Shown here: in pieces, positions 1-31,486 of the stretch | How the letters are laid out: every line of letters starts with the position of its first letter | Position numbering within the stretch: the first letter of the stretch is position 1 | NCBI GenBank assembly: GCA_016190155.1 | Contig: JACPRB010000285.1 | Span: forward strand, 1 to 32,199 | Reading direction: 5' to 3' | Source of the DNA: Planctomycetota bacterium | GTDB lineage: Bacteria > Planctomycetota > MHYJ01 > JACPRB01 | DNA length: 32,199 nucleotides | Notes under the pieces: model-generated | Seen by the model: the letters and a program-made list of their open reading frames with translations, nothing else | Database searches by the model: none | What the model was told of the DNA's origin: nothing | Position numbers and translations under genes: made by a program

Positions 1-594
1 CTGGACCAGCCGTTCTTCGTGCTGGCCACCCAGAACCCGATCGAGCAGGAGGGCACGTATCCGCTGCCGGAGGCCCAGCTCGACCGGTTCATGTACAACA
101 TCATGGTGGGCTATCCGACGGAGGACGAAGAGCTGGAGATCATGAAGCTCACCACGAGCGGCTTCGACGTGAAGCTCCAGTCCATCCTGAGCGCCGGCGA
201 AATCCTCCAGCTGCAGCAGATCGTTCGCCGCGTGCCCATCGCGGATCACGTGACCAAGTACGCCATGGCCCTGGCGCGGGCCACGCGCGTGACGCAGGGG
301 GGCGTGCCCGAGTTCATCAAGGAGTGGGTCCAGTGGGGCGCCGGGCCGCGCGCCAGCCAGTACCTGATCATCGGCGCCAAAGCCCACGCCGTGCTCAAGG
401 GGCGCTACTACGTCACGATCGAGGACGTCCGCGCGGTCGCTCATCCGGTGCTGCGCCATCGCATCATCACGAACTTCTCCGCCGAGGCCGAAGGGGTCAC
501 GACGGACAAGGTCGTCGACAAGCTGCTGGAGGTGATTCCCGCGAAGGAGGCGGAGCTGGAGAAGGTGCCGGGGCTGCCGAAGGTGACGAGCTAG
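1..594 (+). CDS. MoxR-family AAA+ ATPase, C-terminal part (5' end truncated by window edge)
   Basis: Frame is open to the window start; FFVLATQNPIEQEGTYPLPEAQLDRFMYNIMVGYPT is the typical MoxR sensor/AAA_3 motif; DUF58 and VWA genes follow. Confidence 0.93.
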   Translation: MDQPFFVLATQNPIEQEGTYPLPEAQLDRFMYNIMVGYPTEDEELEIMKLTTSGFDVKLQSILSAGEILQLQQIVRRVPIADHVTKYAMALARATRVTQGGVPEFIKEWVQWGAGPRASQYLIIGAKAHAVLKGRYYVTIEDVRAVAHPVLRHRIITNFSAEAEGVTTDKVVDKLLEVIPAKEAELEKVPGLPKVTS

Positions 595-595
595 C

Positions 596-1501
596 ATGCC
601 CGAAAACCCGCAGAAGTTCCTCGATCCCAAGATCCTCAACAAGGTCACGCGCCTGGACCTCAAGGCGCGGCACATCGTCGAGGGCTTCGTCGCGGGCATG
701 CACAAGAGCCCCTACCGCGGATTTTCCGTCGAGTTCGCCGCGCATCGCGAGTACAGTCCCGGGGACGACCTCAAGCACCTCGATTGGAAGGTCTTCGGCC
801 GCAGCGACCGCCTCTACGTCAAGCAGTACGAGCTGGAGACGAACCTGCGCTCGCACGTGCTGCTCGACACCTCGGAGTCGATGGACTACAAGAGCGGCGA
901 GCTGTCCAAGCTGGAGCTGGCGTGCTTCATCGCCGCGTCGATGTCCTACCTCATCCTGCGCCAGCAGGATTCCGTGGGCATCGTCACCTTCGACAAGGAG
1001 GTCAAGAGCAAGGTCCCCAGCTCCTCGAGCATGGGACACCTGCGCGCGATCCTGGGGACGCTGGCGGGCGCCAGCGCGCAGAACAAGACGGACCTCGCGA
1101 CGGTGCTGCACGTCATGGCGGAGCGGCTGAAGCGGCGCGGGTTGGTGATCCTGATCAGCGACCTCTTCGACGATCCGGACAAGATCCTCAAGGGCCTGCA
1201 GCACTTCCGCAGCCGGCGCCACGACGTCATCGTCTTTCACGTGCTCGACGAATACGAGCTGACGTTCCCGTTCCAGCGTATGACGCTCTTCGAGGGGATG
1301 GAGGAGTATCCCAAGCTCCTGGTGGATCCGCGGGCGCTGCGCCAGGCGTATCTCGAGGAGGTCGATCGGTTTTGCCAGAAGCTGCGCCGCGGATGCGTGC
1401 AGCAGATGGTCGACTACGTGCAGATCTCGACGGACCGGCAGCTCGACGTGGAACTGACGAAGTATCTCGCGTCGCGGTTGGCGACGGGGAGACAGCATTG
1501 A
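596..1501 (+). CDS. DUF58 domain-containing protein
   Basis: ATG 1 nt after MoxR stop; motif FSVEFAAHREYSPGDDLKHLDWKVFGRSDRLYVKQYELETN plus VWA-like LLDTSESMDY; MoxR-DUF58 neighbourhood. Confidence 0.93.
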   Translation: MPENPQKFLDPKILNKVTRLDLKARHIVEGFVAGMHKSPYRGFSVEFAAHREYSPGDDLKHLDWKVFGRSDRLYVKQYELETNLRSHVLLDTSESMDYKSGELSKLELACFIAASMSYLILRQQDSVGIVTFDKEVKSKVPSSSSMGHLRAILGTLAGASAQNKTDLATVLHVMAERLKRRGLVILISDLFDDPDKILKGLQHFRSRRHDVIVFHVLDEYELTFPFQRMTLFEGMEEYPKLLVDPRALRQAYLEEVDRFCQKLRRGCVQQMVDYVQISTDRQLDVELTKYLASRLATGRQH

Positions 1502-1537
1502 GGACCCAGAGGGTGACAGAGGACCCAGAGAAGAACC
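1500..1537. repeat. Short tandem repeat gaggacccagag x2 (period 19) in the DUF58-VWA spacer
   Basis: gaggacccagag at 1500-1511 and again at 1519-1530; resembles the cagagg-rich element at ~23.6 kb. Confidence 0.6.
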
Positions 1538-1558
1538 TCCTTATGGAAAGCGACGCTC

Positions 1559-3814
1559 GTGGGCTTCTTTAATCCATCCTTGCTCTGGTTCGCGCTCGGG
1601 GGGGCGATCCCGGTCATCATCCACCTCTTGCACCGGCAGAAGTACCGCCGCGTGCGGTGGGCCGCGATGGAATTCTTGCTGGCGGCGCTCAAGAAGACCC
1701 AGCGGCGGCTGCGCATCGAAAATCTGTTACTCCTGCTGGTGCGGATCCTGATCATGGTGATCCTGGCGCTGGCCCTGTCCCGGCCGTTCTTCCGGGAGGC
1801 GCCGCTGGAGGCGCTCGCCGAGAGCGATACGCATCACCTCTTCGTGATCGACAACAGCGCCTCCATGGCCTTCAAGAAGGCCCAGGAGTCCAGTCTGGAC
1901 GTGGCGAAGAAGACCGCGCTGAAGAAGCTCGAGGAGCTGCGCAAGCTCACCGAACAGGACAAGATCTCCGTCCTGCTGATGTCGAATTACCCGGAGGTCT
2001 TCGTCCCCGAGTCCAACAAGAAAGACCTCGTGCACCAGCGCATCAACGAGATCCGGCTGTCCCACTTCGGGACGAGCGCCCTGGCGACGTTCCAGAAGAT
2101 CGCCGAGGTCATCGAGAAGTCGAAGAACCAGGACAAACGCGTCTATCTCTTCACCGATCTGCAGCGCAACGCGTGGGACGCGGCGGACGAAACCGAGGCC
2201 CGCCGGTTCGCGGAGCTCACGAAGTCCCTGACCTCGCGCGACAGCGTCAAGGTGTATCTCATCGACGTCGGCACCGAAGGCGCCGAGAACCGCGCCGTCG
2301 TCGACCTGCGCGTGGAGAACCCCCTCGTCACGATGAAGGATTCCACGCGCTTCGCCGCGGACGTGCACAACTGGTCGAACGTCAGCCATCCGTCCGTGAC
2401 GGTCAACTTGATGGTCGACGGCGCGCTCGTCAAGACGGAGAGCGTCGCGCTGCCCGCCCAGTCGACGATCAGCGTCTCGTTCAAAGTCGATTTCGTGGAG
2501 GCGGGCGCCCATCACGTGCAGGTGTCCACGGAGCCGGACTTCCTCGACGTCGACGACCGCCGGACGTTCGCGCTGGAGGTGAAGGACGGCGTGGTCGGCC
2601 TGCTCGTCGACGGGGAGCCCGGCAACGCCCCGTGGTCGGGGGAGATCGACTACCTGCGGTTCGTCCTGGAGTTCTCGGATCTGTTCAAGCTGGACCGGCC
2701 GGTCACGCCGGAGATGTTCGAGACGGATCACCTGGAGCGGACCGACTTCATCGCGCTGTGCAACGTGCAGAGCCTCACGCAGGAGAAGGTCGAGAAGCTG
2801 GAGCAATTCGTGCACGGCGGAGGGGGGCTGCTCATCTCCGTCGGCGGGCGCGTGGATCGCGGCTGGTACAACGAGTTCCTGTGGAAGGAAGGCAAGGGGC
2901 TGCTGCCGGCCATGCTGGGCGAGAGCGCGGGGACTTCGCCCGAGGAGGACCAGCCCGTGCCGGTGCGCGTCCAGAGCTACCGGGAGGCGCATCCGATCTT
3001 CCGCACGTTCAGCAAGGGTCTGGCCAAGGCCCCGCGCGAATTGGTGTTCTACCAGTACTTCCGGCTGGAGAAGTTCGACGCCGAGGACGTCGTCGCGCGG
3101 CTCGACGACAATTTCGCGACGCCCCTGTGGGTGGAGAAGCGGTTCGGCGAAGGGCGCGTGCTGCTCTACAACAGCACCATGGACGACGGCTGGAATCTGC
3201 AGGTGCCGGGGCGCCCGCCCTACGTCGTCATGATGAAGACGGCGTGCGAGCACCTCGGCGCGCGGCCGTCGGGCCTTCGCAACCTCTTCATCGGCGACTT
3301 CATCGGGTTGCAGATGACCGCCGACAAGTTCCAGAACACGTTCACGCTGGACACGCCCGGCGAGGGACAGATCTCCATTTCTCCTGAAGTGCCCAAGCGG
3401 GAAGGCGGGACGTTCTGGATCAAGTATCCCACGCCTCCGCCGGAGCATCCGGTGGAAAGACCCGACTCCATCGAGAATGAAGGCCTTCGCAGCGCCGGCC
3501 TGTACAAGCTCGACAGGCTCAACCCCAGGCCGGAGGAACGTCCGGTGGCCTACTTCGCCGTCAACATGCCGCCGCGCGTCGTCTCGCCGGAGGAATTGCA
3601 TCGCGCCGAGGGGAACCTCGCGCGGATTCCCGTCGCCGAGATCCGCCGCCGGTGGCCGGACTTCCGCTTCGAGCTCATCGGAGAGAAGGTCGGCGAGGAA
3701 GTGGCGTTGACGCCTCCCGCGGCGGGACTGTGGAAGTATCTGCTCTATGTGCTGGTCGGGCTGCTCGGCCTGGAATCGGTACTGGCGTGGCTGTTCGGCA
3801 GGGCGAAGCAATGA
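1559..3814 (+). CDS. BatA-like membrane protein with VWA domain (Aerotolerance-type N-terminus)
   Basis: GTG start; N-terminal MGFFNPSLLWFALGGAIPVIIHLLHRQKYRRVRWAAMEFL is the BatA N-terminal signature; FVIDNSASMAF MIDAS-like motif; C-terminal TM. Confidence 0.9.
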   Translation: MGFFNPSLLWFALGGAIPVIIHLLHRQKYRRVRWAAMEFLLAALKKTQRRLRIENLLLLLVRILIMVILALALSRPFFREAPLEALAESDTHHLFVIDNSASMAFKKAQESSLDVAKKTALKKLEELRKLTEQDKISVLLMSNYPEVFVPESNKKDLVHQRINEIRLSHFGTSALATFQKIAEVIEKSKNQDKRVYLFTDLQRNAWDAADETEARRFAELTKSLTSRDSVKVYLIDVGTEGAENRAVVDLRVENPLVTMKDSTRFAADVHNWSNVSHPSVTVNLMVDGALVKTESVALPAQSTISVSFKVDFVEAGAHHVQVSTEPDFLDVDDRRTFALEVKDGVVGLLVDGEPGNAPWSGEIDYLRFVLEFSDLFKLDRPVTPEMFETDHLERTDFIALCNVQSLTQEKVEKLEQFVHGGGGLLISVGGRVDRGWYNEFLWKEGKGLLPAMLGESAGTSPEEDQPVPVRVQSYREAHPIFRTFSKGLAKAPRELVFYQYFRLEKFDAEDVVARLDDNFATPLWVEKRFGEGRVLLYNSTMDDGWNLQVPGRPPYVVMMKTACEHLGARPSGLRNLFIGDFIGLQMTADKFQNTFTLDTPGEGQISISPEVPKREGGTFWIKYPTPPPEHPVERPDSIENEGLRSAGLYKLDRLNPRPEERPVAYFAVNMPPRVVSPEELHRAEGNLARIPVAEIRRRWPDFRFELIGEKVGEEVALTPPAAGLWKYLLYVLVGLLGLESVLAWLFGRAKQ

Positions 3815-6417
3815 ACCTCCTCATGGCGCAATCCCGGTCGGAGGAGTGGATCTCCCGATTGCTGGGGATCGACCGGATCAACTTGAGCGACGGCGAGATC
3901 GGCCTGGACTGGCACCACAAGCTCGACGCGTGGGTGATCCTCCTGGTGATCGTTCCGGTCATTCTCGGCTTGGTGTGGTTCCTCTATCGCCGGGAGCGCA
4001 AGGACGTCGGTCCCGGGCCGAAGGTCCTGCTGACGGCGCTGCGCGCGGCGCTCGCGTTGCTCATCTTCCTTCTGCTCCTCGGCCCGATCCTGACGGTCGA
4101 GATCAACAAGATCCGCAAGAGCTACGTGCTCGTCCTGGTGGACGATTCGCTCTCGATGAAGAAGGTGGACGTCCCCAGCCGGGCGGATCAGAAGCTGGGA
4201 CTGGCGAAGGCCGTTCGGCTGCTCCAGGAAGGCGCGAAGGAAGTCACGCCCGAAGTGGAAGCGGCGCTCAAGACGCTGACGCGGGCGGACATCATCCGGC
4301 GCGTCCTGGAAGATCCAGAGCGGCGGATCCTGGACGAGATCGAAGCGAAGCTCAACGTGGCTTACTTCACGTTCTCCAAGGGCGCGCGGGCGGTGGAGAG
4401 CCGCGAGAAGCTGTTCGAGGTGTACAAGCCGGAAAGCATCATCGGCACGGAGACGGCGATCGGCGATTCCATCCGCCAGGCCCTGGCGATGTACAAGGGG
4501 CAGTCCGTCCTGGCGGTCATCGTGCTGTCGGACGGACGGAACAACTTCGGCGCTGAGCTCGGGCAGCACTACATCCCGATCTACACCGTGCTGGCCGGAA
4601 TCCCGCAGGAGACGCGCGACATCGCGCTCATCGAACTCGAGGCGCAGCAGGCGGTGCTCGTCAACGACAAGCTCCCCGTCAAATTCGGCGTCAAGAGCTC
4701 GGGGTACAACGGGCAGGAGATCGACGTCAACCTGCATGTCTACGAGATCAAGGACGCCGCCAAGGAGCTCTCGCTGGACGCCAAGGACGTGGAGACGTAC
4801 CTGCAGGAAAGCTCGCTCGATCAGACCAAGAAGATGACGCTGGACGGCTCGATGCGACAATCCGACGACCTCGTCTGGCAGCCGCGCGAAGCCGGGGAGT
4901 ATCTGCTGATCCTGCGCGTCCCTCCGCGGGAGGAAGAGCGGACGGACCTCAACAACGTGATCGTGCATCGCGTGCGGGTGGCGGACGACAAGATCAAGGT
5001 GCTCTACGTCGAGCATCCGCCGCGGTACGAATACCGTTTCCTCAAGAACGCGCTGATCCGCGACACGAAGATCCTGTGCCATTGCCTTCTGACCAGCGCG
5101 GACGAGGGGTTTCCCCAGGAGCACACGCGCGACCCGGGCGATCCCGACTTCAAGGAGCCGCTCAAGGAATTCCCGCGGACGCTCAAGGAGCTCCTGAAAT
5201 ACGACGTGATCATCATCGGCGACGTCGATCCCGGGCGGTTGGGCGGGCGCGAGGCGTGGGAGAACATCGAGAAGTTCGTGGCCAATTTCGGCGGCGGCGT
5301 GGTCTTCATCTCCGGCGTCATGAACAACCCTCGGACGTTCAAGGACACGCCGTTGGAACGCCTCTTGCCGGTCATCGTCGACGACGCCGGGCGCGACACG
5401 GAGCAGACGTATGAGCGCCAGTTCGGATACAAGCTGACGGACGAGGCGATCGTGCGGTCGGAGGCGCGCGGCGGGGCGCATCCCATCGTCTCTTTCCCCG
5501 CGCTCGGCAACGACCTCAACAGGATCGTGGAGGCGTGGGAGGATCGCGACGGTCGCAACGACGGGCTGGTGGGGGTGCGCTGGTTCCAGAAGGTGGTCAA
5601 GGTCAAGCCGCAGGGCAAGGTGCTCGTGGAGCTGACGGGCGTCCCGCAGCAGGAGACGCAGGCCAAGCGTCCGCCGCTGTTCGTCGCCGCGCACTACGGC
5701 TTCGGCCGCGTCTTCTGGAGCGCGACGGACGAGACGTGGTTGTGGCGTTATCTGGCGGGCGACCAGCCGTGGTTCTATCCGTTCTGGCAGCAAGCCATGT
5801 ACTGGACGCGCTACGGGAAGCTGCTGGGGGCGAAGCGATTCCGGCTGCGTCTGGACAGGCACGACCGCCGGTACATGACCGGCGACTCGGTGAATCTATA
5901 CGTGACGGCGTTCGACAAGAACTTCGAGCTGCTGGGCGATCCGGAGCTGGAGATCTATGTCGAGCCGCCGACGGGCAAGCGTCTGTCGGTCCGCTTGATC
6001 CGCGACAAGGAGCGCAACGGGTACTACGAAGGCAGTTTCAAGCCGACCGAGGTGGGGATGTACCGGGCGTGGGCGGGGGAGCCCGACGACGACTCGACGC
6101 GCGCCACGGAGAAATTCGTGGTGTATATCCCGAATCGGGAAGAGGACGAGCCGATCCTGGATCGCGAGGAGCTGCAGCGGATCGCGCACGCGTCCCATCC
6201 GGCCGAATCGGAGGGCGTGGAACATAAGGAGAGCGAGTGTCCGAACTTCTTCCCGATCGAGAAGGTCGGCGCGCTGCCGGAGGCGCTGAAGGAATCCAAG
6301 CACAGCCTGACGGAGCTCAAGGAGGACGACCTCTGGGACTCGCCGGCGGTGTACATCCTGTTCGGGCTGCTGATCACGATGGAGTGGATTCTGCGGAAGG
6401 CGTGGAGGATGCTGTAA
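3811..6417 (+). CDS. Large membrane protein with VWA and glutamine-amidotransferase-like regions
   Basis: ATGA overlap with previous gene (ATG 3811, TGA 3812-3814), so the true start lies inside the listed ORF 3652-6417; two N-terminal TMs; LVLVDDSLSMKK VWA motif; typical fourth gene of a MoxR-DUF58-VWA operon. Confidence 0.88.
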   Translation: MNLLMAQSRSEEWISRLLGIDRINLSDGEIGLDWHHKLDAWVILLVIVPVILGLVWFLYRRERKDVGPGPKVLLTALRAALALLIFLLLLGPILTVEINKIRKSYVLVLVDDSLSMKKVDVPSRADQKLGLAKAVRLLQEGAKEVTPEVEAALKTLTRADIIRRVLEDPERRILDEIEAKLNVAYFTFSKGARAVESREKLFEVYKPESIIGTETAIGDSIRQALAMYKGQSVLAVIVLSDGRNNFGAELGQHYIPIYTVLAGIPQETRDIALIELEAQQAVLVNDKLPVKFGVKSSGYNGQEIDVNLHVYEIKDAAKELSLDAKDVETYLQESSLDQTKKMTLDGSMRQSDDLVWQPREAGEYLLILRVPPREEERTDLNNVIVHRVRVADDKIKVLYVEHPPRYEYRFLKNALIRDTKILCHCLLTSADEGFPQEHTRDPGDPDFKEPLKEFPRTLKELLKYDVIIIGDVDPGRLGGREAWENIEKFVANFGGGVVFISGVMNNPRTFKDTPLERLLPVIVDDAGRDTEQTYERQFGYKLTDEAIVRSEARGGAHPIVSFPALGNDLNRIVEAWEDRDGRNDGLVGVRWFQKVVKVKPQGKVLVELTGVPQQETQAKRPPLFVAAHYGFGRVFWSATDETWLWRYLAGDQPWFYPFWQQAMYWTRYGKLLGAKRFRLRLDRHDRRYMTGDSVNLYVTAFDKNFELLGDPELEIYVEPPTGKRLSVRLIRDKERNGYYEGSFKPTEVGMYRAWAGEPDDDSTRATEKFVVYIPNREEDEPILDREELQRIAHASHPAESEGVEHKESECPNFFPIEKVGALPEALKESKHSLTELKEDDLWDSPAVYILFGLLITMEWILRKAWRML

Positions 6418-18710: not shown

Positions 18711-19616
18711 ATGAAACTGTCTTCGCTGCTTCACCCCGCGCTGGTCAAATGCGGCATGGTCGCGACTTCCAAGCAGGAGGCGCTGGCCGAGCTTGTCCGC
18801 CTGCTCGTCGCCACTCAATCCAACCTGTCCGAGCCGGAGCTGCTGCAGGCGTTGGCCGAACGCGAGAAGCTGGGGCCATTTTCCATGGGCAAGGGCGTGG
18901 CGTTTCCGCATGCCCGCACGGAGAAAGTGTCCGACTTCACGATCGTGCTGGGCACCTCGCCGCAAGGCGTCGACTTCCGCGCCCCGGACGGGCACCGCGT
19001 CAAGGTCGCCATCCTTTTCGTCATTCCCAAGAAACACTCGAACCTGTACCTGCAGGCGCTGGCCGCCTTCCTGAACGTGCTCTCCGTGGAGGCGAACCTC
19101 CAGCGCGTCGCGGAGGCCAAGACGCCGCAGGAGATCATGGGCATTTTGGATACATTGTCGGGGCGCCCCCGGGAGGCGGCTCCGCTGGAATCCAACGGCG
19201 TGGCGTCCATCGTGACGGGGACGCCGCTGGCGAAGGCGATCGAGGCCCTGATCGCCGCCCGGGTGGATGCGCTCCCCGTGGTCGATCCCGAGGGCAATCT
19301 CGTCGGGGAGATCGGCGCGGGCACCATCCTGCAGCTCGGCGTCAAGGAGCACTTGCTGGCTTTGGCCAGCTCCGCATCCCTTCAGGGCGGCCTGGGACTG
19401 GAACAGGCGTTACGGCAACATGCGGACACCCCGGTCGAGGCCATTCCGGGGCTGGTTTCGCCCAACGGCTTCAAGACCGTCCAGGAAGACGAGTCGACGC
19501 TGGACGTCGCCGTGCGTTTGGCCCGCGGGGGAGGACGCGGCATCTACGTCTTGCGCGGCCGCAAGCTCGTCGGGATCGTCACGGCGCATGATCTGCTGAG
19601 GAAGCTGGGGCGCTGA
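18711..19616 (+). CDS. PTS EIIA (fructose/PtsN-type) fused to CBS domain pair
   Basis: MGKGVAFPHARTEKVSDFTIVLGTSPQGVDF contains the EIIA phospho-His context; C-terminal CBS motifs (VDALPVVDPEGNLVGEI, GIYVLRGRKLVGIVTAHDLLRKLG). Confidence 0.9.
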   Translation: MKLSSLLHPALVKCGMVATSKQEALAELVRLLVATQSNLSEPELLQALAEREKLGPFSMGKGVAFPHARTEKVSDFTIVLGTSPQGVDFRAPDGHRVKVAILFVIPKKHSNLYLQALAAFLNVLSVEANLQRVAEAKTPQEIMGILDTLSGRPREAAPLESNGVASIVTGTPLAKAIEALIAARVDALPVVDPEGNLVGEIGAGTILQLGVKEHLLALASSASLQGGLGLEQALRQHADTPVEAIPGLVSPNGFKTVQEDESTLDVAVRLARGGGRGIYVLRGRKLVGIVTAHDLLRKLGR

Positions 19617-20236: not shown

Positions 20237-20635
20237 CTATTCCTCCGGCTCGACGATCACGCCTCCCGGACCGGGAGATTCGGACGTGAATCGAATCCGT
20301 CCCGGACTCGATCCTTGAGTCTCGACGGCTCCGCAATCCAAGAGACGCACACCCGGACGGCTCGGCCGGACGCGGAAGCGGTGCCTCTCATGCGGCCGCG
20401 CGCCGGGGACCCACACTTCGACCGTGGCCGGCTGCCCGACGCGAGGCGATTCGTGTCCGACGAACCGCACCTCGAAGTGGGCGAGGACACGAACCGCCCG
20501 TTCCAACACCGTCAGACGCTCGTGCTCGGCCAGGCGCCACGAATGATGCTGGGGCGTCGGAGGCGGCGCCGGAGCGGCGCAGCCGGCCAGCATGGCGAGC
20601 AGGACTACTTTCCCGTAGGACACGATTTGGCCCAT
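20237..20635 (-). CDS. Small predicted lipoprotein
   Basis: MGQIVSYGKVVLLAMLAGCAAP lipobox; overlaps the upstream minus-strand gene by 31 nt. Confidence 0.75.
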   Translation of the reverse strand: MGQIVSYGKVVLLAMLAGCAAPAPPPTPQHHSWRLAEHERLTVLERAVRVLAHFEVRFVGHESPRVGQPATVEVWVPGARPHERHRFRVRPSRPGVRLLDCGAVETQGSSPGRIRFTSESPGPGGVIVEPEE

Positions 20636-21810
20636 TCGCGGGTCTGGTACGCAGCGGCGGCTTGCTGGTCTCGGACGCGCCAGTCCGACGTGTTCAGACG
20701 CATCCGCTCGATTATGTGGTCCTCCATGACGGCTTCGGCGCGCAGGCGCGCCCGAGTCACCCGCTCGTTCATCTCGAACGCCTCCTTGAGCCGGCGGATC
20801 TCCTCGTCGAGGCGGCGCGATTCCTGCTCAAGCGCCCCCTGAACCGTAGGATCGGTCGACAAGGTCCTCGCGGACGCCAGCGCCGCCTGCACGTCGCCCG
20901 CCTCCCGCGTCACTTCGGCCAAGGCGCAGGCGGAAGCCAGCATCGAGACGACCAGATCCCGTTCCACGGGATCCATGGCGCTCAAGCGCTGAACCTCGTC
21001 GTTGCTCATGGGAGGCGCGCCGGGCGGCGAGAGACGATCCAGAGCGTCCGGAGAGAGCGGCCCGCGCGGAGCCTCCGCGGCCGCCGCCGTGAGCGCTTGG
21101 ACGTAGTCCGCGCGCTTGCCGTCGTAACGTCGATCGACGGGGCGTACCTTGACGTCGCCTCCGAAGCGATGCGGACTCAAGGTCAAGCGGCTCACGTAAT
21201 GATCGAGGAGCTCCCGCGGCTTGTCCGACAACTTCAGCGCCTCCCCGATCTCGCGAACCAGATCGATCTCCTGCACGCGTTGCCCGCGCAGGCCGCGCAT
21301 TTCGATCGCGTCGCGACACTGCTGCATCGCTTCGTCGAGCGGCACTCCCTCCGCTTGCTTGCGCTCCAGGCACTCTTTGACGGCAGCCGCGCGCAGTTGC
21401 CGGTCGGGACCTCCCGCAAGCTGTTCCACCGCGCGACACTGGTCGAGCTGCATCTGCAGGAAATCCTGCGTGGTCAGGCGGTAGTGTTTGATGGCGTCGC
21501 ATACCGTCGGCGACATCTGGCAGGCCAGCACCAGGGCGGAGCCCGCCAGCTCCGATCGCGCCCGAGCGACGAGCGCGCCGACGAGTTCATCCTTGACGCT
21601 CTTATTGAAGATGGAGGTGAAGCTCCCCTTGAGATCGAATCGGCCGCACGCCAAATCGGGGGCGAACTCCAGATCGAGGTCGATCCGACCGGGGGCGATC
21701 GTCGTCGTTCGTTCGACCCGGGGTCCGACACGAAGATCCAGTCGGTCTGGGCTTGCCCGCGATCGTTCCATGAGATCCTGGCACAAGGCGACGCAAAGGA
21801 GGAGAGTCAT
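20605..21810 (-). CDS. TraH / ICE PFL_4711-like conjugation-associated protein (putative)
   Basis: LACGRFDLKGSFTSIFNKSVKDELV...LVLACQMSPTVCDAIKHYRLTTQDFLQMQLDQCRAVEQL resembles the N-terminal Cys-containing region of TraH/PFL_4711-type T4SS proteins; ATGA overlap with the upstream TraF-like gene. Start at 21810 inside listed ORF 20605-22005. Confidence 0.5.
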   Translation of the reverse strand: MTLLLCVALCQDLMERSRASPDRLDLRVGPRVERTTTIAPGRIDLDLEFAPDLACGRFDLKGSFTSIFNKSVKDELVGALVARARSELAGSALVLACQMSPTVCDAIKHYRLTTQDFLQMQLDQCRAVEQLAGGPDRQLRAAAVKECLERKQAEGVPLDEAMQQCRDAIEMRGLRGQRVQEIDLVREIGEALKLSDKPRELLDHYVSRLTLSPHRFGGDVKVRPVDRRYDGKRADYVQALTAAAAEAPRGPLSPDALDRLSPPGAPPMSNDEVQRLSAMDPVERDLVVSMLASACALAEVTREAGDVQAALASARTLSTDPTVQGALEQESRRLDEEIRRLKEAFEMNERVTRARLRAEAVMEDHIIERMRLNTSDWRVRDQQAAAAYQTREWAKSCPTGK

Positions 21811-22295
21811 CGCGTCAGCTCCTCGATTTGGTCCCGCGTGCGCAGGCCGCGCAGGACACGACCGTCGATCACGAGGGTGGGCGTAGCCGTCACCTTGTAG
21901 CGCTCCCAGAGTTCCGGAGCGTCGCGAGGCGTCAAGCGCCGCAGCGGGCGCTCGCCCAGGTCCGCCGCCTCGAGCCGGCGATCTTGCTCGGCGCAATGTG
22001 GACAACCCTCTTGCGCGAAGTAGAGAATCTCCCGGCGATCGGTCGGCGGGGCCGACGACTGCACCTCCTCGATCGCTTCGAGCGCCGCCCTCAGTCTAGC
22101 CAGCCGGTCCTCTTGCCACTGGAGGTAAGCCCGGGCGTTCTCATGGGTCGGTTCCTCCAGGAGCCGGACGACGGGCTCGGGCGGGGTATGCCCCGGTTCC
22201 ACCCAAGGCGGCGGATCGGCTCCCTTCTTCTTCGTGCCCCAGAAGTCCACATCGGGTTTCTCGAAGAACTGCATCAGGAGGATCAGCGCGAACAT
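21807..22295 (-). CDS. TraF-like thioredoxin-fold protein (CPHC motif)
   Basis: Perfect SD aaggaggt upstream of ATG 22295; PTHENARAYLQWQEDRLARLRAALEAIEEV followed by ILYFAQEGCPHCAEQDRRL...YKVTATPTLVIDGRVLRGL matches TraF family layout. Confidence 0.6.
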   Translation of the reverse strand: MFALILLMQFFEKPDVDFWGTKKKGADPPPWVEPGHTPPEPVVRLLEEPTHENARAYLQWQEDRLARLRAALEAIEEVQSSAPPTDRREILYFAQEGCPHCAEQDRRLEAADLGERPLRRLTPRDAPELWERYKVTATPTLVIDGRVLRGLRTRDQIEELTR

Positions 22296-22663
22296 GTCAG
22301 CACCTCCTTGAGATCCGTTCGAGCGCCGTGGGCGACGTGTCCCCGGTAGACGAAGCATGGCGTGCGCGCGACACGATAGAGGCGGGCCAGGGCGAGCCCT
22401 TCCTCGTCGATGACGCGCAGCTCTCCGAGATCGGCCAGGGCGGAGAGGAACGGTTCGGGCCAGTCGTTGAAGCCGGTGAGCAGAAGGACCGGCCGCACGG
22501 GCACGCCGCTTCGTCGCAGCGCCTTGGCGAGTTCATCGAGCCGCGGCGTGTCGGGCGAGAAGAAGAAGTAGAGCGTGGCGGGATCGATCGCCGGTTCGTC
22601 GTCCTGGGCCGTGGCCGCCAGCGTTGCCGCGGCGGCGCCCAGGATCCACATCGCGCGTCTCAC
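22283..22663 (-). CDS. TrbC-like (F-type T4SS) thioredoxin-fold protein, putative
   Basis: LYFFFSPDTPRLDELAKALRRSGVPVRPVLLLTGFNDWPEPFLSALADLGELRVIDEEGLALARLYRVARTPCFVYRGHV resembles TrbC layout (S-x-x-x-P..., DP-like, xVPtfV); signal peptide. GTG start at 22663 (alternative ATG 22651). Confidence 0.45.
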   Translation of the reverse strand: MRRAMWILGAAAATLAATAQDDEPAIDPATLYFFFSPDTPRLDELAKALRRSGVPVRPVLLLTGFNDWPEPFLSALADLGELRVIDEEGLALARLYRVARTPCFVYRGHVAHGARTDLKEVLTCSR

Positions 22664-22721
22664 GCCGGGGTGTGTCGGTGGGCGTGAAGAATCGTCATGA
22701 AATCCGCCGGCGTACCGACTT

Positions 22722-23420
22722 TCACTTCGCCGGCAATGGGTAGGTGATCACCACATCCACGGAGTCAATCAGGGCTCCGTCTTCGACTCGCTTCGCCTTG
22801 TAGTACAGAATGCCTCGGTTGGAGTTCCGCAACCGACCCACATGGAACTTGGCGAGCTTCCCCGAGTTGGTTTCGGGGTCGAAGGTCGCCTCTAACGCCC
22901 AGGCGTAGCCGTCCCACGGAAAGGTGTGGCCTGGGGGCGTGTGGATCTCCGATCTCTGATCGCACGTGCCGAAGGGCGTAGCGACAACGGCGTTCTTCAG
23001 ATTGATCTTCACTCCATGCAAGGCCGGCAGATCTTCTTCACATTGAAACGTGAAGACGCCTTCCGGATCTTGGGCCAGTTCCACCGTCACTTCTCGCGCC
23101 TTCACGAGCCCTGTCTGCTTCGCCAGCTTCAAGAAATCCCGGTATTCTGCGCGGGTCAGGCCGAGCTTCTCATCATAAGGAAGCGGTTCTCCCGGTTTCG
23201 CCTCGCGCGCATGCTCCTGGAACCACTCGGGGTCTTCCTGAGCGGCCGCTTGTAGCTTTGCCGTCAATTCTTCGAGACGCGGGGTAGTCCTGAGGGTCAT
23301 GAGGTCGATCTTGCCCTTGACGTGCGCCAGGAGCTTGGGGACCTGGTGGGACATCTTCGCTTCGAGCGCATCGCCGTCCGTCTGCAGCGCACACCCCACA
23401 ACGATCAGCCACTGGATCAT
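22722..23420 (-). CDS. Hypothetical secreted protein, first gene of the TrbC/TraF/TraH-like operon
   Basis: ATG 23420 with aagggaag SD; N-terminal MIQWLIVVGCALQ; 59 nt from next gene. Start is inside listed ORF 22722-24059. Confidence 0.7.
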   Translation of the reverse strand: MIQWLIVVGCALQTDGDALEAKMSHQVPKLLAHVKGKIDLMTLRTTPRLEELTAKLQAAAQEDPEWFQEHAREAKPGEPLPYDEKLGLTRAEYRDFLKLAKQTGLVKAREVTVELAQDPEGVFTFQCEEDLPALHGVKINLKNAVVATPFGTCDQRSEIHTPPGHTFPWDGYAWALEATFDPETNSGKLAKFHVGRLRNSNRGILYYKAKRVEDGALIDSVDVVITYPLPAK

Positions 23421-23529
23421 GGTGTCTTCCCTTTCACGCGATATTCGGCTCTCTATTCGATCTAAACGGCGATTCGTTCGTCCGAATCGACGTGACTCCA
23501 TGATCTCCGTATCGTGCGCGAACCCCACG

Positions 23530-23773
23530 TGAACCGTGCCCGAATTCTGGCACGATTCAATTTGGGCTTGTGCGAGGACACAGAGGGGAGCAGAGAACGT
23601 AGAGCTGCGGGCCAAATCGCAGAGATCGCAGAGGGTCGCAGAAACGGAGGAGAACGGGAGAAATCGCCTCTCTGCACCCTCTGCGTTCTCTGCGATTAGG
23701 TTCTCTCTGCGCCCTCGACTGCTCAATAAGCCTGCCACGACTGTCACCCTCGGTTGAACCATGCCCGAATTCT
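23530..23773. repeat. Pair of 19-bp direct repeats (tgaaccRtgcccgaattct)
   Basis: tgaaccgtgcccgaattct 23530-23548 and tgaaccatgcccgaattct 23755-23773 (18/19 identical), flanking the inverted-repeat element. Confidence 0.7.
23574..23719. repeat. Imperfect nested inverted-repeat element rich in cagag/ctctg motifs
   Basis: Inner arms atcgcagagatcgcagagggtcgcagaa (23616-~23642) and tctctgcaccctctgcgttctctgcgat (23669-23696) are near-complementary; outer arms cagaggggagcagagaac and ggttctctctgcgccctcg also pair. Confidence 0.75.
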
Positions 23774-23896
23774 CGATCGATTTCCTGCCGAAGTCGGCCT
23801 CCCGAGCGCACACCTGCACGGCCGCTATGCGGCGGTTCTTTGAAAATCCGGACCCGGGAGCGCAAATTTTTCCGTGCTTCCGCCGGCCTTCCTTGT

Positions 23897-23929
23897 CCGG
23901 AGGGTGCGCATGAACGCGACGCCCTCCGG
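23897..23929 (+). other. Hairpin upstream of small ORF (8-bp perfect stem)
   Basis: ccggaggg (23897-23904) and ccctccgg (23922-23929), 17-nt loop. Confidence 0.5.
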
Positions 23930-23967
23930 CGGGGACGTCGCATCGACTCATTTCGAGGAGGTGTACC

Positions 23968-24084
23968 GTGCCCCGCGCAAAGAGAAGGGCGTGGATGGCG
24001 GTCGTCGATCGTATCGCCGTGGCGGTGGCCAGGGTGGCGGAGTTGCTGATCCTGGTCATGAACGCCTACTTCCGCGTCCGGTAG
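23968..24084 (+). CDS. Small ORF, 38 aa: MPRAKRRAWMAVVDRIAVAVARVAELLILVMNAYFRVR
   Basis: GTG start preceded by aggaggtg at 5-6 nt spacing; basic N-terminus then hydrophobic/amphipathic helix-like stretch; stop TAG 24082-24084. Below the length cut-off of the ORF track. Confidence 0.5.
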   Translation: MPRAKRRAWMAVVDRIAVAVARVAELLILVMNAYFRVR

Positions 24085-24124
24085 GCAGGTCGGCCTGGGG
24101 GCACACGCTCCCGGGTCCACCCAC

Positions 24125-24232
24125 ACGAAAAATCCAAAATCCCAAGCCCCAAGAGATCCTGCCTTTCCTCGGCTCGGGCAGCGCCGTCGGGATTGGGGAC
24201 TGGTTCGACGGGCTCACCACAAGTTCGGAGTC
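24125..24232. repeat. Two short dispersed-repeat-like fragments
   Basis: aaaaatccaaaatcccaagccccaa (~24127-24151) and ggttcgacgggctcaccac (~24203-24221) resemble repeats common in environmental bacterial genomes. Confidence 0.35.
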
Positions 24233-24246: not shown

Positions 24247-25980
24247 ATGCCTCTCTTGCCGCGCCGTCTGGGTCGCTATGAACTGGTCGAGGAGATCGCC
24301 CGCGGCGCCCACGGGATCGTCTACCGCGCCCGGGACCTCGAGCTGGGGCGAATCGTGGCGCTCAAGCTGTTGCGAGCCGAAGAAACCACGGCCACCTCGG
24401 TGGAGCGCTTCCATCGCGAAGCCCGCATCGCCGCGAGGCTCCGCCACTCTCACATCATCGACGTGTTCGAGGCGGGAGAGGAGGACGGACAACCGTTCTT
24501 CACGATGCCGTTGATCGCGGGGCCGTCGCTGGCCCGCGTGCTGCAGGGCGCCCCTCTCGACCCGAAAACGACGGCTCGACTGATCGAACGTGTGGCGCGC
24601 GCCGTCCATTTCGCCCATCAGCGAGGGGTCGTGCATCGGGATCTCAAGCCGACCAACGTGCTGATTCGCGACGACGGTACGCCGGTCGTAACCGACTTCG
24701 GAATCGCCAGGGACGAAGAGGCCCCCCGCTCCCTCACCGAAACCGGCGAACTGCTGGGAACGCCGGCCTACATGGCTCCGGAGCAGATCACGGGCGGCGC
24801 TCGCAAGGCCGACGCGCGTGCCGACATCTATGCGCTGGGCGCGATTCTCTATGAGCTCTTAGCGCGACGGCCGCCCTTCCAGGCTACGACGTTCCTGGAA
24901 CTCTCGGCTCAGGTCCTCAACAACGCGGCGGAGCCGCCGTCACGACACGATCCGGCAGTCCATCCGGACCTCGAACGCATCTGCTTGCGGTGCCTGCGCA
25001 AGGATCCCGACGAACGCTATCCCACCGCGAACGATCTTGCGGAGGATCTGGCGCGCGTCGCCGCCGGAGAGGAAGTGACTGTGCGACGCGAAACCACGAG
25101 CGCTCGTCTGAGGCGGGCGATGAAACGCCATCGACTCGTCGCGGTGTCGGCCCTGGCCGGCTTGGTGGGTGCGGCGGTGGCGTTGACGGCCGGCGCGTTC
25201 GTTCGCGGTCCTTCCACGGCCGACTCCGGGGCGCGGGCATTCGTCATGACGGACCCGGAGGGGGCTTCCCTATACCGGGAGGGGCGTTTCGAGGGGACGA
25301 CTCCCCGGGCCACGGAACCGCATCCGCACGTGCAGTTGAGGCGAGTGGGATTCCTGGAGGTCGCGATTGCGGTTCGACCGGGCGAGAATCGTTTTCACCT
25401 GGTGCGTCCCGGCGAGGTCCCCGAAGGGATGGTCTATGAGGCGCAGCGCGGGCTCTTCGTCGACGCCGCGGAAGTGACGGTGGGGCAGTACGCCCGCTTC
25501 GTTGAAGCGACCGGCCATCGATCGCCCCCCGCGTGGAAACGGGCGGCGGCACCGAAGGGTGATGAGGCGCTTCCGGTGGTCGGGGTGAGCTGGCGGGATG
25601 CCCGGGCGTACGCCGATTGGTCGGGCAAGCGTTTGCCGACCGTCGAGGAATGGCGGTCGGCCGCACGCGGGGCCGCCGGGCCGATGAACGGCGCCTCGGA
25701 GTCCGGGCCGCGGGAAGCCGGCGCGTTTCCGGGGGATTGCTCGCTCTTCGGTTGTCGGGACGTGCTGGGCAACGTTCAGGAGTGGACCGCCACGGAAGGC
25801 ACGGCCGGGCCGGACTATCGCATCGCGTGCGGCGGCAGCTGGGAACGCGCGCCGCGGGAGTGCACCACCGACCGGGCGGAGGAGCGACACGTCGACCACC
25901 GCAGCCGGGATCTGGGATTCCGCTGCGTCATGGATCCGCCGTGGCGTCCCTACCCGAAGAAGACCTCCGCGTCGGAGTAG
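24247..25980 (+). CDS. Serine/threonine protein kinase fused to C-terminal FGE/SUMF1-like domain
   Basis: Kinase: HRDLKPTN, DFGIARDEE, APEQITGGARKADARADIYALG; TM; then VDAAEVTVGQYARFVEATGH, GVSWRDARAYADWSGKRLPTVEEW, DVLGNVQEWT, CGGSWERAP, RDLGFRCVMD. Start at 24247 inside listed ORF 24193-25980. Confidence 0.93.
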   Translation: MPLLPRRLGRYELVEEIARGAHGIVYRARDLELGRIVALKLLRAEETTATSVERFHREARIAARLRHSHIIDVFEAGEEDGQPFFTMPLIAGPSLARVLQGAPLDPKTTARLIERVARAVHFAHQRGVVHRDLKPTNVLIRDDGTPVVTDFGIARDEEAPRSLTETGELLGTPAYMAPEQITGGARKADARADIYALGAILYELLARRPPFQATTFLELSAQVLNNAAEPPSRHDPAVHPDLERICLRCLRKDPDERYPTANDLAEDLARVAAGEEVTVRRETTSARLRRAMKRHRLVAVSALAGLVGAAVALTAGAFVRGPSTADSGARAFVMTDPEGASLYREGRFEGTTPRATEPHPHVQLRRVGFLEVAIAVRPGENRFHLVRPGEVPEGMVYEAQRGLFVDAAEVTVGQYARFVEATGHRSPPAWKRAAAPKGDEALPVVGVSWRDARAYADWSGKRLPTVEEWRSAARGAAGPMNGASESGPREAGAFPGDCSLFGCRDVLGNVQEWTATEGTAGPDYRIACGGSWERAPRECTTDRAEERHVDHRSRDLGFRCVMDPPWRPYPKKTSASE

Positions 25981-27199: not shown

Positions 27200-30100
27200 T
27201 TGTCCCGCGTTACCGAGACGTATGCCAGCCTCTCTCAAGAAGATGACCTGACGGGGCTGCGCAATCGCCGGTTCCTGGTCCAAGACCTCTCCGAGAGGCT
27301 CCAGTCCCAGGAGCTCTTCTCCCTCCTTCTCCTCGATTTCGATCGCTTCCAGGACGTCAACGAACAATGGGGCAACATCGCCGGCGATCGGGTCCTCAGA
27401 CAATTCGCGGAGCGCCTTCGTGAAATCGGGCGCGAGACCGATCTGCTGGTGCGGTACAGCGGGGACTCCTTCTGCATGCTCCTGCCGCGGGCGAGCGCGG
27501 AGTCGGCGACGTCCCTCGCCAAACAGGTCCAGCACGGCTTGTCGGAGCGGCCCATCGACACGGGCACGCAGAAGGGGTCGATCGCGCTGACCCTGTCCGC
27601 GGCGATCGCGGCGCACCCGCAGGACGGCAACACCGTGGAAGCGTTGCTGGAGGCCCTCGAAACGGCGATGTACGCGGCCAAGAAGAAAGGGCCCGCCGGC
27701 ATCCTCACGGCGGCTCAGACGGACCCCGCGCTCAAGGTCGAGCGCCGCACCCTCTCCGTCATCCCCACCCCCGACTTCATCGGACGCAAGTCGGAAATGA
27801 CGGCGGCCGATCGATTCGCCTCCGGGGTTCGAGACGGCAAGGCCGGCGTGCTCCTCCTCTACGGGGACGCCGGTCTGGGCAAGACGCGCTTCATGCGGCA
27901 TCTCGCCAGCCGGTTCCGGGGAACAGGGCTCCTTTACTTCTATATGTCCTGCAACCCCCTCTGGCGCAGCCGGCCTGGGTATGGCCTGGTGTACCTGATC
28001 AATCGTTTCTTCGAGCACCATCCCGCCTCGCAGGATCGGCTGCGCACCGTGCTCAATCCGGTCCAGCGCCATGTCCTGCGCGAACTCGTTCCGGCGATCG
28101 CCTCGTGGCAGGCCGAGCCGGCGCCGTCGCTGACCCCCGCCAATCGAACCAGCCAAATCCTCGAGGCCTTGGAGATCTCCCTCATCGTGGTCACCCAGGA
28201 GGCGCCGCTGGTGGTGCTCCTGGACAACATGAAGGCCCTGGATCGGGGAACGGTGGACGTCCTCTCCGTCCTTTTGCGGGAGAACAAGGCCCGCATGGGC
28301 GTCATCGGGTCCATCACCGGCGAGCCGTTCCAACTCCATCCGACGGAAGACGCGCGGCTGATCGAGTTCATCGGCGAATTCCAGAAACGCGGTCGCTTGT
28401 GGGGGATCAGCCTGAGCCCGTTCACCGGGGACGACCTGCGGTCCCAGATCGAGGCGATCCTCCCCGGATCGATGCGCCCGCCCGGCTTCGACGACATCCT
28501 GGTCGAACGCTCGCGCGGAAACCCGCTCTACATAGAGGAAGCGTTGCGCGCCCTGATGCTCAACGGACGCATCCGGCGGGAATCCGTCTTCTGGCGGGTG
28601 CAGGTCGTCGAGCCTCACGAAGTGCCGGCGAATCTCGATGCGGCGTTGGCCGCCGTCCGGGAGCACGTCTCGCGAAACGCCCGGGAATTCCTGACCAACG
28701 CGGCCGCCGTCGGAACCCGCTTCGACGTGCGCGTCGTGCAGGACCTGACCGGCAAACGCGAAGGAGAGATCCTCGACGCGGTAGCCAAGGCCGTGGACGC
28801 GGGGGTGATCCATCCCGCCCCCGAGGGACGCCCCGATGAGTACGAATTCGCCAGCGACCGCGTCCGCGAGGCTCAGATCGAGGCCGTGCCTCCTCAGGAG
28901 CGCGAGAAGCTCGAGAGTCGGGTCACCGAAGTGGTTCGGGCACAGACGGCACCGCCGCCGGATCCTCCTCCGCCGCCACCCCCGCCCCCGCCTGAGCCGG
29001 CTCCATCCCCTTCTCCAGGCGGCGCTCCCGGGCCGGTGTCCGTGCATCGGGCGCGCGATCTGATGACGGCCTTTACCGAGTGGGTGCAGCGGGATCGGCT
29101 GTTCCCGCAATGGGCGAAGCTCTCGGTGGAATCGCTGTCGCGGGTCATGGAGGCTCTCCAGGCTCTGTTGGCTGAATCGCCCCTCGTGACCTTCGCCGTC
29201 GCCTCGCCCGGCCTGCGGCTCAACGACACTCCGCTGGACCCTCTGACGGGCGGCGAAGTCGTCTGGGATTTCGCGACCATGCTCTCCGAGCGCCTCATCC
29301 TGAGCGTGACCTTTGAGGCCGGGGTGCAGGCGAACGAGATGACGGTATTCGCGCGCCAGATGTGTGCTCCCATGGACATCGAGCGCGTGCCACAGGATTA
29401 CTGGGAGCAGGCCCTGCGACGGGAGGGAGCGACCCATATTCGCGTCCAGCAGAGCCGATTCGTGAGCTACCCCGAGGGAGAGACGGTGAATCTCCTGCGC
29501 GGGGATCTGGTCGGAGACCGGCCGCTCGGATCGGATGCGACGCTCGTTTGGCCCTTGTTGCGGGCGCTGCGGGGCGCCGCGATGAACCTGCGACTCTATC
29601 CGCCGGAGCATCCGCATGTGGTCCGCGCGCTGTCGGACGCGGTCGAAGGAGCCCAGGCCCTGCTCTCACGCGTACGCGTTGTGACGTTCAGCGTCCAGGA
29701 GGGGCGATTGAACGCCAACGGGCAGGCGTTGGGCGAGGGCGCGGATCGAGGTGAGTCGGCGCGATTTCTGGCCGACGAACTGGGAAAGAAGGGATTCCGC
29801 TCCTTGACCCTCAAGGACGGACTTACGGATCGCGAGGTCAGGTCGGTGGCCAGCATCCTCTCGCTGGCGACGGACGATCCCGCGTGGGCGACTCATGTGC
29901 AGATCGTCTTGGGAGGCACGGGAGTGCGCCGGTTCATCTTCGCCGCGGGCGGGGCGGCGGTCACCACGAGCGTGGCCCTTCCGACGCCTGCACCCGAGCC
30001 GGTGAAGCCCGATCCGCCCCAGGCGCATCGAGCCGTCGCCATTCCTCCGACCGCATCGAGTCCGCCTCCGGTGGTGCCCGTCAAGGTGGGTCAGCTTCAA

Positions 30101-31486
30101 ATCACGCGCAGCATACCGGGGCCGCCTCCACGGGTGGACCGTACTCCCACGACGCGCAACATCCCGGTTCCACCGGCGTCTCCGGCCGTTCCCGAGGCAA
30201 AATTCGGGGAGGTTCAGTTCCAGGAGATCCCAGAAACCGGCGAACCCGTCCGGCTGGACGTGCGAGCCCGGACGCTGCTGAAGCTCACCGACGAGCAATT
30301 CGTGTCGAAGGAAACGCAGGCCGAGTATGTGAATCTCCTGCAGGCCCTCAACCAAGGCTGGACGCAAGACCTGGTGTTGCAGTTGACGGAGCGGCTCGGG
30401 GCGTTGATCGGCAGCGAGCACGCCGTCCTTCGGGAGCGATCCCTGACCGTGGCGCGGACGGCGCTGCGCGACTTGAAGCGCGAGCCGCTGGAGGCGTTCC
30501 TCTCTCGGTTGAGCGGTATCCTGCGGGCACGGATCATGGCGGAGCTCGACCCGATCGTCCAGCAGGCGTTGGCGGAGACCCTGAGGGCGTGGATGTCCGC
30601 GGCCTTCGGGGTGAATCGCGTGAATCTGGCGGCCGAGATGGCTCGCGACACGCTGCGTCCGGCCATGGATTCGCCGAAGCTGTCGCGGGAATTCCGCATG
30701 GCGTTGAGCTCCAAGATGCGGGCGCTGTCGATCGATCTCATGCCTCCGCTGTTGCAGCTGCTGGTCAACGGATCGGCTTCCATGCGGGAAGGGGTGGTGA
30801 TGATCCTGGGCATCCTGGGACCCGCCGTGAACGCGCACCTGGTCAAGCTCGTGACGACATCTGATAATCCGGAAGTGCGTCGGGCCGCCGCCCGCGGTCT
30901 GGGCGTCGTGGGCGGAACGGCGCAGGGGGAGCTCTCGCGACTGGTGACCAAGGACGGCGATCCGGAGACGCTGCGCCGGGTGTTGGGCGTCTTGGAGCTG
31001 TCGGGGACCATCAACGTCGTCAGCACGGTCATGGCGGCCATCGAGCATCCGTCGGAGACGGTGCGGGACGCGGCCTTCGCCGTCCTGGAACGGATCGACA
31101 TGTCCATCGCCGGCCCGGCGTTGAAACGTCTCATGGCGGCGCCGGAAGGGTGGATGGTCGCGCGCGGCATCCAGGTCTGCATGCACCGGCAGATGGCGGG
31201 GGTGGCGCCCGAGATCGTGCGAATGGGGACCGCCACGCAGGACGAGATGATCGCCCGCGCCTGCTGCGAGTTCTTCCAGGCGGTGCCCGTGTCGGGGGCC
31301 GTCGCGGTGTTGAAGCGGGTCTTCGATATGAGGCCGCGGCTCTTGAAGCGAGGGTGGAGCGAGGACACGCGGGCGGCGGCGGTCAGGGCGGCGGTGCGGC
31401 TCATCGGCGCGCCGGGCGCGCAGGACATCGTCACGGCCGCCAAGAGCGACGAGAGCCCGGTCATTCGCCGGGCGGCGGGGGCGTAG
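27200..31486 (+). CDS. Multidomain protein: degenerate GGDEF + AAA ATPase + Pro-rich linkers + duplicated module + HEAT-like repeats
   Basis: DDLTGLRNRRFLVQDL...LLLLDFDRFQDVNEQWGNIAGDRVL...RYSGDSFCMLL (GGDEF-like); VLLLYGDAGLGKTRFMRHLASRF Walker A; C-terminal HEAT-like MREGVVMILGILGPAVNAHLVKLVTTSDNPEVRRAAARGLGVVGG. Confidence 0.88.
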   Translation: MSRVTETYASLSQEDDLTGLRNRRFLVQDLSERLQSQELFSLLLLDFDRFQDVNEQWGNIAGDRVLRQFAERLREIGRETDLLVRYSGDSFCMLLPRASAESATSLAKQVQHGLSERPIDTGTQKGSIALTLSAAIAAHPQDGNTVEALLEALETAMYAAKKKGPAGILTAAQTDPALKVERRTLSVIPTPDFIGRKSEMTAADRFASGVRDGKAGVLLLYGDAGLGKTRFMRHLASRFRGTGLLYFYMSCNPLWRSRPGYGLVYLINRFFEHHPASQDRLRTVLNPVQRHVLRELVPAIASWQAEPAPSLTPANRTSQILEALEISLIVVTQEAPLVVLLDNMKALDRGTVDVLSVLLRENKARMGVIGSITGEPFQLHPTEDARLIEFIGEFQKRGRLWGISLSPFTGDDLRSQIEAILPGSMRPPGFDDILVERSRGNPLYIEEALRALMLNGRIRRESVFWRVQVVEPHEVPANLDAALAAVREHVSRNAREFLTNAAAVGTRFDVRVVQDLTGKREGEILDAVAKAVDAGVIHPAPEGRPDEYEFASDRVREAQIEAVPPQEREKLESRVTEVVRAQTAPPPDPPPPPPPPPPEPAPSPSPGGAPGPVSVHRARDLMTAFTEWVQRDRLFPQWAKLSVESLSRVMEALQALLAESPLVTFAVASPGLRLNDTPLDPLTGGEVVWDFATMLSERLILSVTFEAGVQANEMTVFARQMCAPMDIERVPQDYWEQALRREGATHIRVQQSRFVSYPEGETVNLLRGDLVGDRPLGSDATLVWPLLRALRGAAMNLRLYPPEHPHVVRALSDAVEGAQALLSRVRVVTFSVQEGRLNANGQALGEGADRGESARFLADELGKKGFRSLTLKDGLTDREVRSVASILSLATDDPAWATHVQIVLGGTGVRRFIFAAGGAAVTTSVALPTPAPEPVKPDPPQAHRAVAIPPTASSPPPVVPVKVGQLQITRSIPGPPPRVDRTPTTRNIPVPPASPAVPEAKFGEVQFQEIPETGEPVRLDVRARTLLKLTDEQFVSKETQAEYVNLLQALNQGWTQDLVLQLTERLGALIGSEHAVLRERSLTVARTALRDLKREPLEAFLSRLSGILRARIMAELDPIVQQALAETLRAWMSAAFGVNRVNLAAEMARDTLRPAMDSPKLSREFRMALSSKMRALSIDLMPPLLQLLVNGSASMREGVVMILGILGPAVNAHLVKLVTTSDNPEVRRAAARGLGVVGGTAQGELSRLVTKDGDPETLRRVLGVLELSGTINVVSTVMAAIEHPSETVRDAAFAVLERIDMSIAGPALKRLMAAPEGWMVARGIQVCMHRQMAGVAPEIVRMGTATQDEMIARACCEFFQAVPVSGAVAVLKRVFDMRPRLLKRGWSEDTRAAAVRAAVRLIGAPGAQDIVTAAKSDESPVIRRAAGA

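Follow-up and report, generated by a model that had tools for sequence, protein, structure and literature searches.

Four consecutive minus-strand genes at positions 22663-20237 of the 32,199-nucleotide contig JACPRB010000285.1 of a Planctomycetota bacterium (GenBank assembly GCA_016190155.1; the whole contig is called the window) very probably code for the periplasmic and outer-membrane accessory subcomplex of a chromosomally resident F-type type IV secretion system (T4SS) that is related to the GGI and MPF_G systems. Judged from sequence comparisons, this operon, termed the module below, is the TrbC-TraF-TraH stretch of such a system, which in this Planctomycetota family is detached from the main locus, and the genes of the T4SS are distributed over two or more loci, namely, the main locus and a satellite operon. 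The genome to which the window belongs (G000, with the window as contig C240) is a draft of 4.49 Mb in 360 contigs and is 88% complete. The original prediction, made from the letters of the window, had seen in the operon an orphan or repurposed subset of a T4SS without a machine, perhaps an envelope disulfide device; this reading was dropped once TraC, TraU, TraG, TraD, and other components were found in G000 and the full set in relatives.

Identity of the Module Proteins

All five minus-strand open reading frames (ORFs) of the original prediction lie exactly at the coordinates it gave, and the overlaps of 4-31 nt claimed for the last four genes are measured as 13 nt (22295/22283), 4 nt (21810/21807), and 31 nt (20635/20605). 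The module begins with the gene of a TrbC-like periplasmic protein (P0002, 22283..22663; 126 amino acids), which starts with GTG at 22663 or ATG at 22651 and has a signal-peptide-like N-terminus and a thioredoxin-like region devoid of a CxxC motif. It is followed by the genes of a TraF/TrbB-like thioredoxin (P0003, 21807..22295; 162 amino acids) with a TraF-type N-terminal helix and a CPHC active site, of a protein of the TIGR03755/PFL_4711 type in the TraH slot (P0004, 20605..21810; 401 amino acids), the N-terminal half of which is Cys-rich and the C-terminal half helical, and of a small putative lipoprotein (P0005, 20237..20635; 132 amino acids) with the lipobox-like motif LLAMLAGC, which is the conserved last gene of the module. 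The sequence features pointed out earlier, namely, the PTHENARAYLQWQEDRL region and CPHC core of P0003 and the Cys-rich segment CGRFD...SPTVCDAIKHYR...QLDQC of P0004, were seen again.

The window proteins were searched against Pfam and NCBIfam profiles, and small profiles of the module proteins were compared by hhalign with 27 T4SS proteins of F/R100, MPF_G, and distant planctomycetes. P0004 matches TIGR03755 (PFL_4711) with an E-value of 9.6e-9, the best stretch being N-terminal, and four of the five members of its family match the same model, far under the curated cut-off. Its top three hhalign targets are the planctomycete TIGR03755 protein (E 1.6e-11), the MPF_G TIGR03755 protein (E 5e-4), and F TraH (E 0.0011, probability 20%, 168 columns). 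By sequence, P0004 is a distant homologue of TIGR03755 that falls outside the family as defined by its curated cut-off. P0003 and its orthologues give weak but repeated matches to the TraF model PF13728 (E 2e-4 to 0.5; orthologues 10.7-21.6 bits), the homologue in the more distant planctomycete G045 reaches 34.2 bits and lies above the gathering cut-off, and the best hhalign target of P0003 is F TrbB (E 3e-4). The CxxC motif and a TPT loop with the cis-Pro are found in six of six family members. Generic thioredoxin models of the DsbA, DsbC, or TlpA kind score about equal to or above TraF on P0003; a generic thioredoxin was set aside, as the N-terminal helix, the gene order, and the orthologues fit TraF/TrbB. 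P0002 matches no Pfam or NCBIfam model, and TrbC of F/R100 ranks first among its 27 hhalign targets, weakly (E 0.0023, probability 12.6%) and over the thioredoxin-like domain. The counterpart of P0002 adjoins TraU in G045, where that of P0004 stands directly before TraG. P0005 belongs to no known Pfam or NCBIfam family and has no relative among the 27 targets.

Several points weigh against these assignments. The score of P0004 is 34.5 bits, under a curated cut-off of 270 bits for TIGR03755; P0003 itself has 15.6 bits with PF13728, below the gathering cut-off of 23 bits; P0002 is called TrbC from the weak profile match quoted above and from its position; and the AlphaFold models of P0002 and P0004, calculated from three-row alignments, are of low confidence (pLDDT 54.5 and 57.8, resp.) and gave no support. 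No relative of P0004 or P0002 was found among solved structures, and searches of plasmid and viral contigs with P0004 gave no match. Taking together profile matches, profile-profile ranking, and gene order, the original assignment to TrbC, TraF, and TraH/PFL_4711 is right in kind, TrbC being the least certain; the comparison with T4SS families which had been proposed along with it returned TIGR03755 for P0004 and, weakly, PF13728 for P0003.

Further Components of the Secretion System

The earlier statement that no other T4SS gene is visible holds within the window and fails genome-wide, as TraC, TraG, TraV, TraU, TraE, TraL, and TraD are encoded on two other contigs of G000. Contig C229 carries TraU (PF06834, over the cut-off), the coupling protein TraD (PF10412, E 1.9e-20), TraE (PF05309), and TraL (PF07178) as well as a DUF4400 protein and a small protein in the TraW position, which is named by position only and has no hhalign match to F TraW. 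On contig C321, the VirB4-family ATPase TraC (PF11130, E 7.3e-26) with intact Walker A and B motifs and TraV (PF09676, over the cut-off) are found. The TraG of this contig matches the Pfam model TraG_N with an E-value of 0.013 only, and its identification is based on an identity of 35-40% with the TraG proteins of the relatives G001, G002, and G003 (39% to the G002 orthologue), which occupy the same place beside TraC.

In G002, which is 99% complete, the main locus (C107) consists of TraG-TraC-TraV-TraB-TraK-Dsb/VKOR-pilin back to back with TraL-TraE-TraW?-TraU-TraD-DUF4400, and the module lies on a separate contig, C78; TraC of this genome matches TIGR02746 with an E-value of 6e-92. G003 has the same layout, interrupted between TraC and TraV by the end of a contig, and TraD was not found there; it was located on G000:C229, G001:C24, and G002:C107. 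The core complex TraV/TraK/TraB is present in G002, G003, G004, and G045; in G000, TraV was found and TraB was not. In G045, a single cluster has the order TraK-TraB-TraV-TraC-W?-TraU-TrbC-TraF-TraH-TraG, and in the planctomycetes G162 and G255 a TrbC-TraF-TIGR03755 series is followed by a large TraG-like gene. In each of the four genomes with a chromosomal module, the main locus is present as well, in part or in full.

A small membrane protein with a weak DUF4400 match is always encoded directly after TraD, in the position of Yaa in the GGI (loci L024, 7263-7514; L043, 13343-13696; L045 on G001:C24, 5395-5748; L025 on G004:C149, 5155-5706), and it is kept even though no relaxase was found.

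Conservation and Probable Residence in the Chromosome

Searches with P0004 detected relatives in three of the four other genera of the same family (G001, G002, and G003), each with the order TrbC-like protein, TraF-like thioredoxin, TIGR03755-like protein, and small lipoprotein-like protein; in G001, one extra small ORF is inserted. Across the four genera, identity is 35-60%, and order, CxxC motif, and most of the Cys pattern are retained. Conserved synteny in relatives, which the original prediction had named as a check, is therewith found. In the window, G001, and G002, a gene coding for a Ser/Thr kinase-FGE protein (24247..25980, plus strand, in the window) stands divergently upstream of the module; the kinases are mutual best matches and serve as a synteny marker, not being part of the T4SS. 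Within a phylum sample of 297 genomes, matches were obtained in eight, comprising G000-G003, G005 of the same class, and three from more distant families. By these comparisons the module is family-level chromosomal equipment and not a chance string of ORFs.

The main locus likewise has conserved surroundings: next to the tra genes, C229 has a PolX-like gene, a sigma-factor-like gene, and three others in common with G003:C108, and a glycosyltransferase and an aminotransferase are common neighbours in G001 and G002. The chromosomal neighbourhood assumed earlier is thus borne out by synteny. Trees of the module, TraG, TraC, TraU, and a chromosomal vWA-type gene, which are unrooted, comprise four taxa, and have moderate support in several forks, agree where resolved in grouping G000 with G003 and/or G001 with G002. 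A recent horizontal arrival was considered and rejected: the G+C content of the module is not low (67.3% versus 65.6% for the window), and synteny and trees fit long residence. The G+C content at third codon positions of the module (0.75-0.82) is somewhat under that of four other window genes measured (0.86-0.92).

Mobile-looking versions exist as well. A second copy of the module on G000:C194 (6763-9731), about 31-35% identical to that of the window, is surrounded by a tyrosine integrase, IS66 transposase genes, a serine recombinase, DUF736, and a ParE/Phd toxin-antitoxin pair; neither TraC nor TraU turned up a second time in G000. In G004, of the same family, contig C149 has a T4SS resembling that of an integrative and conjugative element (ICE), with a MOBH-type TraI between TraU and TraD, a serine recombinase, and sigma factors; the resident system may have a mobile relative in it. 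Since these two contigs look mobile and the other loci are syntenic and chromosomal, mobile and resident lineages of the T4SS coexist in the family.

Apparent Absence of a Relaxase

Profiles of the relaxase families MOBH (PF07514), MOBF (PF08751), MOBP (PF03432), and MOBQ (PF03389) matched nothing in G000-G003, MOBV, MOBC, MOBT, and MOBM not having been searched; the only matches are those of G004 (MOBH) and G005 (MOBF, on a separate contig). TraN (PF06986) was found in none of seven genomes. The gene order of G004 is TraU-TraI-TraD-small protein. In the resident systems the position of the relaxase between TraU and TraD is empty, because these genes overlap by 4 nt (G000 and G002) or are adjacent (G001) where G004 has TraI. 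As far as sequence comparison goes, the relaxase of this T4SS has apparently been lost.

Alternative Explanations

Decay within individual lineages must be taken seriously as an alternative to a resident, assembled system. The module and the scattered tra genes would then be decaying remnants of an ancient integrated conjugative element from which nothing is assembled, at least in G000 and G001; taken as a whole, we consider this rather unlikely. Much of what speaks for it concerns TraB (VirB10), which was found neither in G000 nor in G001, and since G000 is 88% complete and lacks a detectable TraB, decay may have set in there. Both flanks of the TraB-TraK-Dsb-pilin block are now occupied by unrelated genes in G000, with a PD-(D/E)XK (GxxExxY-type) protein upstream of TraV in place of TraB (C321, 14119-14933) and a HEAT-repeat-like protein beyond TraL (C229); the block may have moved into the unassembled part of the genome or been lost. 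In G001, what remains of TraC, its C-terminal 117 codons, immediately adjoins TraU (C24, 7195-8353), and in comparison with G002, W?, E, L, pilin, Dsb, K, B, V, and most of TraC are gone; this junction is either a deletion or a misassembly, the genomes compared being fragmented metagenome-assembled genomes. The failure to find TraD in G003 and a relaxase of the four families searched points in the same direction. On the other side, all tra genes that G000 has are uninterrupted over their full length, with the ATPase motifs intact, where random decay would have led one to expect frameshifts in some of these genes. Moreover, the conservation of the module across four genera, described above, and the complete set retained in G002 argue for maintenance.

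Unlikely, and slightly more so than decay, is a system that is still conjugative or mobilizes other elements in trans, its relaxase residing in an unassembled part of the genome, on a separate plasmid or ICE, or in a family outside the search. Such a system would be in line with the retention of TraD and the DUF4400 protein beside TraU in three genomes, as in MOBH systems (PMC4207684), with the TraU-TraI(MOBH)-TraD version of G004 and its serine recombinase, and with the module copy on the mobile-looking contig C194. It is opposed by the lack of MOBH, MOBF, MOBP, and MOBQ relaxases from G000-G003, the 99%-complete G002 included, by the closed TraU-TraD slot, and by the syntenic chromosomal surroundings of the loci.

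That the module is a stand-alone envelope disulfide or assembly device, taken over from a T4SS and functioning independently of it, as first proposed, is very improbable: two thioredoxin-like proteins and a Cys-rich protein in one operon, its physical separation from the other tra genes, and its presence in G001, where most of TraC was not found, and in G000, where TraB was not, would suit such a device, but part of the main locus accompanies the chromosomal module in all four genomes, the same genes stand inside one T4SS cluster in G045, and the trees of the two loci are without conflict.

Proposed Function and Significance

For the F-type T4SS, it is known that the N-terminus of TraF binds TraH, that TraF, TraH, TraU, and TraW are specific to F T4SSs and cooperate in extending the pilus at the outer membrane, and that TrbC works with TraW (PMC7555446). 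Secretion of single-stranded DNA by the GGI T4SS needs trbC, traF, and traH (PMC4207684). Reasoning by analogy from homology, gene order, co-occurrence, and the absence of four relaxase families to assembly role, substrate, and current activity, the accessory subcomplex might operate as follows. The four module proteins, among them the Cys-rich TraH-like scaffold and the lineage-specific lipoprotein, would be exported, and the CPHC thioredoxin would form or isomerize disulfide bonds of this scaffold and, possibly, of TraU. The TrbC/TraF/TraH group would join TraU at the outer membrane, and the TraC-driven machine would then assemble or extend a pilus or channel. Without a relaxase, the system would no longer transfer its own DNA. 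Because no relaxase was found, protein export or a surface appendage would be the likeliest present use.

These findings suggest that a conjugation machine has turned into a resident part of these bacteria. A further-reading proposal, which we put forward tentatively and regard as plausible rather than probable, is that this uncultured Planctomycetota family has permanently domesticated an F/GGI-like T4SS, with split chromosomal loci, vertical inheritance across genera, loss of the relaxase, and use in protein export or as an appendage. The absence of a relaxase, as seen in sequence searches, is compatible with a protein-exporting T4SS; such systems (pT4SS) have been recognized only within MPF_T and MPF_I (PMC4793230). 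If domestication is true, the planctomycete system would be the F-type counterpart of these, the F class, too, could be taken over by its host, and a minimal F-type pilus or channel gene set kept without DNA transfer would have been identified. Each component is of a known kind. The literature searched did not contain a description of an F-type T4SS from Planctomycetota, nor of dispersed chromosomal, apparently relaxase-free F-type systems there. As a caution, a small tra-like operon that seems an orphan within one window can belong, as a satellite, to a complete machine encoded at another place in the chromosome.

Comparison with Known Systems

With the tra operon of F/R100 (MPF_F), the planctomycete system has in common homologues of TraL, E, K, B, V, C, U, and G and, with less certainty, of TrbC, TraF, and the TraH-slot protein, and the order TraU-TrbC-TraF-TraH-TraG is kept in G045. 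It differs in its chromosomal location, in this family with the genes at two loci or more, in the absence of TraN and of a relaxase of the four families searched, in the TIGR03755-type protein in the TraH slot, and in the extra lipoprotein. Furthermore, the planctomycete TraF-like protein contains a CxxC motif, whereas F TraF does not (PMC7555446).

GGI-like T4SSs of Neisseria and other bacteria, composed of an MPF_F transport complex, a MOBH relaxase, TraD, and Yaa, are likewise chromosomal, have a DsbC-like gene among the tra genes and a small membrane protein after TraD, and include trbC, traF, and traH in the machine (PMC4207684). Unlike these, four genomes of the planctomycete family have no relaxase (same four families), the sole MOBH case being the ICE-like contig G004:C149.

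To MPF_G (TIGR03755/03756/03757, PFL_4711), the system is linked by the matches of P0004 to TIGR03755 and of TraU to TIGR03756, by TraG, which aligns best to MPF_G TraG, and by the location of the TIGR03755-type protein shortly before TraG. In contrast to MPF_G, the planctomycete TraC is F-type (TIGR02746 best), and a TraF-like thioredoxin and a TrbC-like protein stand between TraU and the TIGR03755-type protein.

Neighbouring Genes in the Window

The original prediction had described a five-gene operon; genes 2-5 (22663-20237) constitute the module, and gene 1 (22722..23420, minus strand), separated from the P0002 gene by a gap of 58 nt, is not conserved. Because it has no homologue in any related locus examined and a low G+C content (59.7%, compared with the module and window values given above), it is probably outside the module. 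It is contained in a low-G+C stretch (about 59-61%) at 22500-24200, between module and kinase gene, which looks like a later insertion.

A MoxR/DUF58/vWA-type operon occupies positions 1-6417 of the window, about 14 kb from the module; on G002:C78 the same operon is about 2.5 kb from the module. A PTS EIIA type-2 domain fused to CBS domains is encoded at 18711-19616. Finally, the stretch 27200-31486 codes for a 1428-amino acid protein joining GGDEF, AAA ATPase, and HEAT repeats in an unusual signalling architecture.

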